Part shown: piece after piece, positions 42,622 through 44,497 of the stretch | Layout: every line of letters begins with the position of its first letter | Position numbering within the stretch: the stretch's first letter is position 1 | Origin: Fibrobacter sp. | Lineage (GTDB): Bacteria > Fibrobacterota > Fibrobacteria > Fibrobacterales > Fibrobacteraceae | Assembly: GCA_012511955.1 (NCBI GenBank) | Contig: JAAZFC010000020.1 | Span: 1 to 64,000 of the forward strand | Length of the DNA stretch: 64,000 bases | Direction: 5' to 3' | Position numbers and translations under genes: made by a program | Notes under the pieces: model-generated | What the model was told of the DNA's origin: nothing | The model's database searches: none | The model's input: the letters and a program-made list of their open reading frames with translations, nothing else

Positions 42622-43116
42622 TTATTGCTCTTTAAGCTTTTGATAGTCTGACAGATGCTGTTCCATTTCTACAGCGTCCATATAGAAACTCACTTTGTCT
42701 GAGCGATCAATGGCACCCATGTTGGTGAAAAACCTTCGTAAATCCAAGCGGTCGCGGCTACATTCCCATGCTAAATTTGCATTGTTCTTCAATGCTATTT
42801 GCTCTAGTTTTAAAAAGATATTAGTGCCTACAGATTTTTTTCGCCATAAGGGTTGTACATATAAATCCTCTAAATAAAGAGTTTTTTTGCCTTTCCAAGC
42901 AGAGTACATGGTAAACCATAGGGCAAAACCCACAGCTTCATCGTTTTTCCAAGCCAACAAAGCTTGAAAGGCTGGACAATTGCCAAAAGCATCTTCGGTT
43001 AACTGTTCTACCGTAGAGCTAACTTCATTTTGACTGCCATATTCTAAGGCGGACTCCAAAATGAGTTCATGCAATAAAGGCATGGTGTCAGGGGTAACTA
43101 ATTTGTATGTAAACAT
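42622..43116 (-). CDS. GNAT-family N-acetyltransferase
   Basis: A 164-residue GNAT protein. The acetyl-CoA core has LYLEDLYVQPLWRKKSVGTNIFLKLEQIA, in which the usual R/Q-x-x-G-x-G/A loop is R-K-K-S-V-G, followed by an NLAWECSRDR strand and RRFFTNMGA. The pattern resembles spermidine/spermine and thialysine acetyltransferases (SAT2-like), but the substrate is not determined. I start at the ATG 43116, which has AAGGA five bases upstream; an ATG ten codons earlier (43146) has no ribosome-binding site. Ends six bases from convergent tkt. Confidence 0.8.
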   Translation of the reverse strand: MFTYKLVTPDTMPLLHELILESALEYGSQNEVSSTVEQLTEDAFGNCPAFQALLAWKNDEAVGFALWFTMYSAWKGKKTLYLEDLYVQPLWRKKSVGTNIFLKLEQIALKNNANLAWECSRDRLDLRRFFTNMGAIDRSDKVSFYMDAVEMEQHLSDYQKLKEQ

Positions 43117-43179
43117 AGCATCCTTGGAACGAAGTAAATCTGACATTATTAAGAAAATAGCTTTTTAAAAAATAAAAGC

Positions 43180-43206
43180 TAAAGATTGTTAAAAAACTGC
43201 CGATAA
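43180..43206 (+). promoter_or_regulatory. Sigma-28 (FliA) flagellar promoter of flagellin
   Basis: TAAAGATT (43180-43187), exactly 11 bases, then GCCGATAA (43199-43206). The classical sigma-28 consensus is TAAAGTTT-N11-GCCGATAA, so the -10 element is perfect and the -35 element has one mismatch. Transcription should start near 43213, giving a 5' leader of about 118 bases before the flagellin ATG. This is strong evidence that the genome encodes a FliA-type factor and a full flagellar cascade. Confidence 0.85.
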
Positions 43207-43213
43207 ATATAAT
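43186..43213 (+). promoter_or_regulatory. Overlapping sigma-70-like promoter before flagellin
   Basis: TTGTTA (43186-43191), a 16-base spacer and a perfect TATAAT (43208-43213) overlap the sigma-28 promoter. If used, transcription would start about seven bases further downstream. In AT-rich DNA this could be chance; the two could also compete. Confidence 0.35.
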
Positions 43214-43259
43214 GGGAAGATTATGTCTTATTTGATATAATTAAGATAAATTATAAACA

Positions 43260-43326
43260 GGGGGAAACCCCAGTTGGAGAAAGGAATCTCCTCCTTCAAA
43301 CAGGCACGGATGTCTGAATCGGAGGA
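43260..43326 (+). promoter_or_regulatory. Structured flagellin leader with candidate CsrA-binding sites
   Basis: Three elements lie in a row. GGGG-GAAA-CCCC (43260-43271) is a hairpin capped by a GNRA tetraloop. GGAGA-AAGGAA-TCTCC (43276-43291) displays GGA in a six-base loop, the structure CsrA prefers. CACGGATGT (43305-43313) matches the core of the CsrA consensus (ACARGGAUGU-like), and the Shine-Dalgarno GGAGGA (43321-43326) adds a third GGA 5 bases before the ATG. This resembles the Bacillus hag leader, where CsrA bridges an upstream site and the ribosome-binding site. Confidence 0.5.
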
Positions 43327-43330
43327 TTAC

Positions 43331-44158
43331 ATGAGAATCAACGCTTCGTTAATGTCTCAACAATCTGCGCAGAACTCAAAAGTTCAGCGTAGTATGTCGA
43401 AGATTTTAGAAAAGCTTTCCACGGGAAAACGCATCAATCGCGCTTCAGACGATGCGGCGGGATTGGCGGTGGCTAAGCGTTTAGAGGCTATGACTAGAGG
43501 TTATAAGCGCGCGGGTGCTAATATTTCAGATGCCATGAGCGCCTTGAATATCGCCGATGGCGGTGCCAATGAATTGACTGAAATTTTGCAAAGGCAGCGA
43601 GAATTAGCTACGCAAGCGTCTAATGGTACGCTCACCGACACTGATCGCGAGGTTTTAGACCGTGAATATCAACAATTAAATCAAGAGTTGGAGCGAGTTG
43701 TAAAATCTACGCAGTTTAATACCATGGACTTACTCAGTGGTCAAGGCCCGTTGGCAGACGGCACTGGAGTAGCCCAAGTGGGGCCTGGTGCTACTGAAGA
43801 AAATCAAATGAATTTGCCTGCCACTGATATGACCGCTGCAAGTGTTGGTTGGGGAGGCGATATTTCCACAGTGGGAGGCGCCCAAGCTGCTTTATCTATT
43901 ACATCTAGTGCTTTAGATAATATTTCTGAGCAAAGATCCACCATAGGGGCGCAAACCAATAGGTTGGAATCTGCTTATAGAAATAACAGCACCATGGAAA
44001 TCAATACCTTGGATGCCCAATCTCGTTTAGAAGATTTGGATTACGCCCAGGGGTTGATGGATTTAGCTCGCAGCAATATTTTAGGGCAAAGTGGTACTAA
44101 TGCCCAGCGGTATTTTATGCAAGTATCTCAGCATACGGTAATGGGATTGCTGCAATAG
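43331..44158 (+). CDS. fliC: Flagellin
   Basis: A 275-residue flagellin with the conserved N-terminal D0/D1 helices (MRINASLMSQQSAQNS, LSTGKRINRASDDAAGLAVA, ISDAMSALNIADGGANE) and C-terminal D1/D0 helices (RLESAYRN, SRLEDLDYAQGLMDLAR, QRYFMQVSQHTVMGLLQ). There are no D2/D3 outer domains; only about 45 variable residues (about 150-195) link the two halves, so the filament should be slim, as in spirochaete FlaB. GGAGGA precedes the ATG at 43331; an in-frame TTG at 43274 lies within the leader structures and is not the start. Transcribed from a sigma-28 promoter; fliS follows. Confidence 0.95.
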   Translation: MRINASLMSQQSAQNSKVQRSMSKILEKLSTGKRINRASDDAAGLAVAKRLEAMTRGYKRAGANISDAMSALNIADGGANELTEILQRQRELATQASNGTLTDTDREVLDREYQQLNQELERVVKSTQFNTMDLLSGQGPLADGTGVAQVGPGATEENQMNLPATDMTAASVGWGGDISTVGGAQAALSITSSALDNISEQRSTIGAQTNRLESAYRNNSTMEINTLDAQSRLEDLDYAQGLMDLARSNILGQSGTNAQRYFMQVSQHTVMGLLQ

Positions 44159-44167
44159 GATAGCTTT

Positions 44168-44497
44168 ATGCTTAGTGAAAAAGCAGTGCGGGCTTATGCG
44201 CAGACCTCGGCGGCTACCGCTGGGGTCTTAAAGTCTTATCAACTATTAGTGGAAAAAGCCTTAACTAGCTTGTTAAGGTTTCGCCAAGATAATCACTTTA
44301 GTCATAGAGATTTAGCCCAAGATATTGTGGCGCAAATTCAGCATGGTTTGAACTTGAGCTTTGAAGCAAGTGCATGGCTTTACGAAAGCTTAGGGATTAT
44401 TTGGGATAGTTTAGAAGGCGGTCCAGAGGAGCTCAATCGCGCCGAAGATCTATTGCGCCAATTGCGAGAATTATTGGTTGAAATGCAAAAAAAATAA
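44168..44497 (+). CDS. fliS: FliS-like flagellin export chaperone (divergent)
   Basis: A 109-residue, all-helical protein nine bases after flagellin. The pattern fits FliS: a Y-Q-T-S-like first helix (RAYAQTSAATAGVL), a helix with L..F....., then AQDIVAQIQHGLNL, YESLGIIWDSLE and NRAEDLLRQLRELLVEM. FliS binds the C-terminus of newly made flagellin in the cytoplasm and hands it to the export apparatus. It is shorter than usual (about 125-130) and lacks the common TASPxxLxxMLYDG motif, so the call rests on helix pattern plus position. Confidence 0.7.
   Translation: MLSEKAVRAYAQTSAATAGVLKSYQLLVEKALTSLLRFRQDNHFSHRDLAQDIVAQIQHGLNLSFEASAWLYESLGIIWDSLEGGPEELNRAEDLLRQLRELLVEMQKK

Follow-up and report, generated by a model that had tools for sequence, protein, structure and literature searches.

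GGA-loop hairpins in flagellin leaders suggest CsrA-FliW control of flagellin in Fibrobacterota

Control of flagellin by CsrA and its antagonist FliW is established in Bacillus subtilis and Campylobacter jejuni, as described in earlier reports (PMC7652899, PMC6529632, PMC4894983). Within the 64,000 nt of DNA analysed here (hereafter, the window), a flagellin gene is preceded by a long leader with several GGA motifs, which raises the question of whether this gene is subject to the same kind of control. We conclude that CsrA probably represses translation of the flagellin, through binding that is predicted, and that FliW relieves the repression, as in Bacillus and Campylobacter; we put the probability of this reading at roughly 0.8.

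Promoter and leader of the window flagellin

The 275-residue product of the gene matches both flagellin domains of Pfam (Flagellin_N, 7.9e-33; Flagellin_C, 2.5e-11). A reading made from the sequence only had proposed a sigma-28 promoter with one mismatch, followed by a leader of ~118 bases that holds a GNRA-capped GGGG/CCCC hairpin, a GGA in a six-base loop (AAGGAA), an element matching the CsrA core, and GGAGGA at the ribosome-binding site. All of these elements were recovered in our analysis (Table 1). The promoter differs at one position from the consensus TAAAGTTT-N11-GCCGATAA, and no other site in the window has fewer than three mismatches to it; when up to three are allowed, the window has three sites, compared to a chance mean of 1.69. 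FliA is encoded in the source genome (277.9 bits, above the curated cut-off), and another flagellin of that genome, L032, has a sigma-28 consensus with no mismatch. In the nearest relative (G010), the best upstream site has seven mismatches, and is not sigma-28-like. Judged by the promoter, transcription would start near 43213, and the leader, counted from there to the ATG, is 118 nt long. Directly after the flagellin gene lies a 109-aa ORF (44168-44497, plus strand) with a weak match to FliS (PF02561, E 0.045, below the cut-off), which may be a diverged form of this flagellin chaperone.

Table 1. Features at the window flagellin gene (SD, Shine-Dalgarno; H1 to H3, predicted hairpins)
Feature	Position	Strand	Basis or remark
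GNAT acetyltransferase gene, divergent	42622-43146	-	Other side of the promoter and leader region
Sigma-28 type promoter, TAAAGATT-N11-GCCGATAA	43180-43206	+	Sequence match; FliA in genome
Promoter element TAAAGATT	43180-43187	+	Followed by 11-base spacer
Promoter element GCCGATAA	43199-43206	+	
H1, GGGG-GAAA-CCCC, GAAA tetraloop	43256-43275	+	Fold
H2, GGAGA-AAGGAA-TCTCC, candidate CsrA site 1	43276-43291	+	Fold; GGA at 43283-43285
Strand predicted to pair with SD (UCCUUC with GGAGGA); encloses H3	43292-43297	+	Fold
H3, CAGGCA-CGGA-TGTCTG, candidate CsrA site 2	43301-43316	+	Fold; GGA at 43308-43310
SD, GGAGGA, candidate CsrA site 3	43321-43326	+	Sequence
Flagellin gene, 275 aa	43331-44158	+	ATG at 43331

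Folding added two features to that earlier description, namely that the CsrA-core element CACGGATGT sits in a hairpin of its own (H3), and that the Shine-Dalgarno sequence (SD) is predicted to pair with the strand preceding H3. The core within H3, CACGGAUGU, is similar to the CsrA SELEX consensus RUACARGGAUGU, as quoted in PMC7652899. The SD context is ATCGGAGGA rather than ACANGGA. The leader thus has at least two GGA sites, one of them over the SD. The GGA motifs of H2 and H3 are 25 nt apart, and that of H3 is 13 or 16 nt from the two within the SD; all of these spacings lie inside the range of 10-63 nt over which CsrA sites can be bridged, according to the same report (PMC7652899). No Rfam family matched the region 43150-43400 at an E-value of up to 5.

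Together with the first codons, the leader folds better than shuffled sequences (z of -3.3, with 1 of 200 shuffles as good). However, at least one GGA-loop hairpin arose in 1619 of 5000 shuffles of the leader, and two non-overlapping ones (of at least 5 bp) in 137, so that the window leader alone is modest evidence. The weight is carried by the comparison across relatives.

Distribution of csrA, fliW and flagellin

Control by CsrA presupposes csrA, and the earlier reading would have fallen had the gene been missing. This objection is excluded, as single copies of csrA and fliW (8.8e-39) lie next to each other in the source genome, downstream of a flagellin. Residues 1-71 of the 75-residue CsrA align with PDB 1t3o, which we take to be B. 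subtilis CsrA, and residues 2-72 with chain D of 5dmb, a FliW entry whose chain A is matched by the FliW of the source genome. Judged by these two CsrA alignments, the C-terminal extension, the part that FliW contacts, appears to be present. The protein also has L4 and R44, to which PMC7652899 assigns a role in RNA binding. Ahead of the flagellin-fliW-csrA cluster (L038; G000:C15, reverse strand), ~54 nt from the flagellin ATG, stands a sigma-54-like promoter, TTGGCACGGTAGTTGCTT, which would put csrA and fliW under a different sigma factor than the late flagellins.

We then considered a set of 60 genomes, the source genome included. TIGR02147 (Fsuc_second), a family presumably typical of Fibrobacter, was present in all 41 genomes of the set that were searched for it, the source genome among them, compared to none of 14 controls, from which we infer the phylum Fibrobacterota; a search for 16S in the source genome gave no match. 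Flagellin was found in 29 of the 60 genomes. Among these, csrA was present in 24 and fliW in 25, and fliW lay beside csrA wherever the latter was found; the 31 flagellin-free genomes yielded neither gene. The flagellated genomes with no csrA match were G007, G026, G029, G056, and G058 (73%, 78%, 90%, 94%, and 91% complete, respectively). Families f1 and f3 each include genomes with and genomes without csrA, fliW, and flagellin, so that joint loss of the three likely happened more than once. PMC4704652 describes flagellar genes as an ancestral trait of the phylum that F. succinogenes and its relatives have lost, and credits Chitinivibrio alkaliphilus, a cultured member of the phylum, with a polar flagellum; CsrA and FliW are not mentioned in that text.

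GGA-loop hairpins in the flagellin leaders of the phylum

The survey began with 120 flagellin-like genes, each taken with the region upstream of it; eight with a model score below 190 were dropped before counting. A GGA-loop hairpin (score of at least 12, within the last 100 nt) precedes 60 of the remaining 112 flagellins, compared to 16 of 161 other genes of the same loci, and hairpins of the same score occurred in 79 of 1120 dinucleotide shuffles. Similarly, ACANGGA overlaps the SD in 53/112 flagellins and in 7/161 other genes. The recurrent arrangement is thus one of GGA-loop hairpins followed by ACANGGAGG, and it is accompanied by compensatory changes. When the core was chosen by sequence alone, which was possible in 45 of the 112 leaders, the flanking positions at offsets 3-6 could pair in 64-76% of cases, compared to 39-47% after permutation, a level that none of 1000 permutations reached. 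The 32 control cores gave no such pairing as a series, and the signal was weak in family f1 taken alone (14 leaders).

A structural alignment points the same way. A first alignment (A1), of 19 out of 22 selected leaders, was set aside because it split the 3′ arms of the hairpin, and A2 was used instead; from a second selection of 21 leaders, L021 was omitted from A2 and from the model derived from it, because its SD end aligned badly. In the resulting 20 leaders, all from outside the window's family, all eight stem pairs have changed on both sides and 86.6% of cells are paired. As these leaders were picked for having a hairpin, their pair counts lean towards structure, and the sequence-only core test is the fairer of the two.

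The same 20 leaders served to train R1, a covariance model that combines the hairpin with the SD. When the 2.68 Mb source genome was scanned, contig C42 supplied the top four places (24.3-27.0 bits), each the leader of one of its four flagellins; the next place scored 14.4 bits. Over the 60 genomes, R1 gave 59 matches at E up to 0.1, of which 53 are linked to flagellins (51 just upstream of one and two before flagellins at contig ends). Where a genome had contributed leaders to the training set, its matches are in part a product of construction. In the window's own family, on which the model was not trained, 21 of 22 matches are flagellin leaders. The six other matches are distributed one each among G046, G057, G058, G017, G037, and G041, the last three of which have no flagellin. 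That in G046 (L049, C39:112337-112379, minus strand) is a complete-looking element followed by AACACGGAGG and no start codon, located 194 nt before a flagellin and inside a flagellin array, and may be what remains of a lost gene. The one in G057 (L143, C5:66840-66881) consists of a GGA hairpin and SD; the 337-aa ORF behind it matches no family and is a candidate non-flagellin target of CsrA. Under R1, the window leader itself scored 13.2 bits and an unrelated stretch of the window 12.9, so that the leader does not rise above background; it represents a divergent form, in which two hairpins lie near the SD.

The closest comparison for this form is L004 of G010, the nearest relative, whose flagellin is 62% identical. 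It keeps H2 as GGAGA-ACGGAT-TCTCC and H3 as CAGGCA-AGGA-TGCCTG, followed by CGGAGGA, and the changes within H2 and H3 are compatible ones. At the place of H1, ahead of H2 and H3, L004 has a hairpin of different sequence. Ten other orthologs from the same family (49-52% identical) lack both H2 and H3, which are therefore kept in 1 of 11. Lack of conservation in close relatives had been named in advance as an outcome that would count against the proposal, and it applies in part: 10 of the 11 orthologs are without the window's sites, but L004 retains them, and paralogs in the source genome carry the element, including an H3-type hairpin in L035 and L036. Conservation with compensatory changes is hence strong when the phylum's flagellin leaders are taken together, whereas that of the window leader's own sites is confined to one ortholog. 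In many of the same-family relatives (L005-L014), another ORF, the end of which reads alike between genomes, immediately precedes the ortholog of the window flagellin, which has a weak purine-rich SD with neither H2 nor H3. A flagellin search of the named genome contigs returned two distant loci only (L033 and L034).

Is a protein needed to explain these leaders? Conceivably, the RNA acts on its own, with the SD held in the stem formed by 43292-43297 and 43321-43326 until temperature, ribosomes, or another trigger opens it, and with the GGA loops incidental to purine-rich mimicry of the SD. The window SD is indeed predicted to be closed (unpaired probability over GGAGGA of 0.00-0.13; opening cost of 6.27 kcal/mol). 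However, the corresponding stem is weaker in L004 (3.87 kcal/mol), and the loops retain GGA while the stems covary. Moreover, the SDs of 111 flagellins in which one is recognisable are not less accessible than those of the 161 other genes (median 0.49 vs. 0.35), and we rejected SD sequestration as a general mechanism on these grounds. We consider control by RNA alone to be unlikely. Even less probable, in our estimation, is a role of the hairpins in stability or processing of the flagellin mRNA with no action on translation. H1 with its GNRA loop, which in the sequence-only reading may protect the mRNA 5′ end, and the hairpin of different sequence at its place in L004, would fit such a role, but the conserved parts are the loop GGA and ACANGGAGG at the SD, which points to protein binding at the ribosome site.

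Whether that protein is CsrA was brought into question by G056 and G058. Two genomes with no match to csrA or fliW might be expected to serve as a hairpin-free negative control, but this simple expectation failed, as GGA hairpins precede three of their flagellins (L101 twice, and L102). Neither draft has a close ortholog of the flagellin that adjoins fliW in the related G057. Either both drafts miss the csrA/fliW cluster, or something else reads the hairpins. Another protein, be it an unknown one or a diverged CsrA, could do so in at least part of the phylum, and these two genomes speak for it; incompleteness of the metagenome-assembled genomes could explain them, though, and csrA, where found, lies beside fliW and encodes a protein that retains its RNA-binding residues, while both genes are missing from the flagellin-free genomes. 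We regard a reader other than CsrA as improbable, somewhat more so than control by RNA alone. CsrA-type control of the window flagellin, as the sequence-only reading had it, is well supported by inference: adjacent csrA and fliW, the sites kept in L004, and the phylum-wide element argue for it, and the ten orthologs without H2 and H3 against.

Proposed mechanism and relation to known systems

Under CsrA-FliW control, transcription of the flagellin gene by sigma-28 would come late in the assembly of the flagellum, and a CsrA dimer would bind the GGA motifs of H2, H3, and the SD and block ribosome entry. FliW would remove CsrA when cytoplasmic flagellin is low, and would itself be titrated by cytoplasmic flagellin, as the Bacillus and Campylobacter systems suggest. 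In the window gene only, CsrA on H3 could additionally clamp the SD-pairing stem shut, because that stem encloses H3.

The C. jejuni flaA leader is alike in that it belongs to a sigma-28 gene with FliW as antagonist and forms a pair of stem-loops whose loops carry ANGGA, with compensatory changes; the second of the two lies over the ribosome site. The genes csrA and fliW are likewise missing in certain non-flagellated Campylobacter species (PMC4894983). In contrast, the flaA leader has 45 nt and two sites, rather than 118 nt with three GGA sites and H1, csrA and fliW are not adjacent in C. jejuni, and the source genome has several flagellin paralogs with such leaders. The hag gene of B. subtilis, as described in PMC7652899 and PMC6529632, also has two CsrA sites, one of which is over the SD, and FliW as antagonist, but belongs to another phylum and differs in the same paralogs, in H1, and in the third site. 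As the sequence-only reading proposed, the control considered here may be of independent or of ancient origin. CsrA also represses a flagellin, flaB, in Borrelia burgdorferi, a lineage far from Bacillus, to go by the title of that report. The control as such is therefore already known; a literature search, judged by titles and the opening of abstracts, found no report of it for Fibrobacter, and Fibrobacterota is a phylum for which we found none.

From the co-occurrence of the genes and the genome-wide ranking of sites, csrA appears to be mainly devoted to flagellins in this phylum. A stronger version, which we advance tentatively and at slightly less than even odds, is that CsrA of Fibrobacterota is a single-purpose flagellin regulator, the targets of which are essentially the flagellin paralogs, each with a leader of GGA hairpin and ACANGGAGG, and which is lost together with flagella; the window gene would be a three-site form, with a CsrA hairpin inside the stem that closes the SD.

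CsrA-FliW control of flagellin, shown by experiment for Bacillus and Campylobacter, would thereby extend to a phylum of which the non-motile Fibrobacter was long the defining genus, and the case for it draws on many leaders. That csrA, fliW, and flagellin are absent together supports the proposal, made in PMC4894983, that the flagellar role of CsrA-FliW is possibly the more ancient, with the assembly of flagella perhaps the earlier task of this pair. The leader elements also offer a compact signature, open to testing, by which the regulation of flagellin could be recognised in uncultured genomes.
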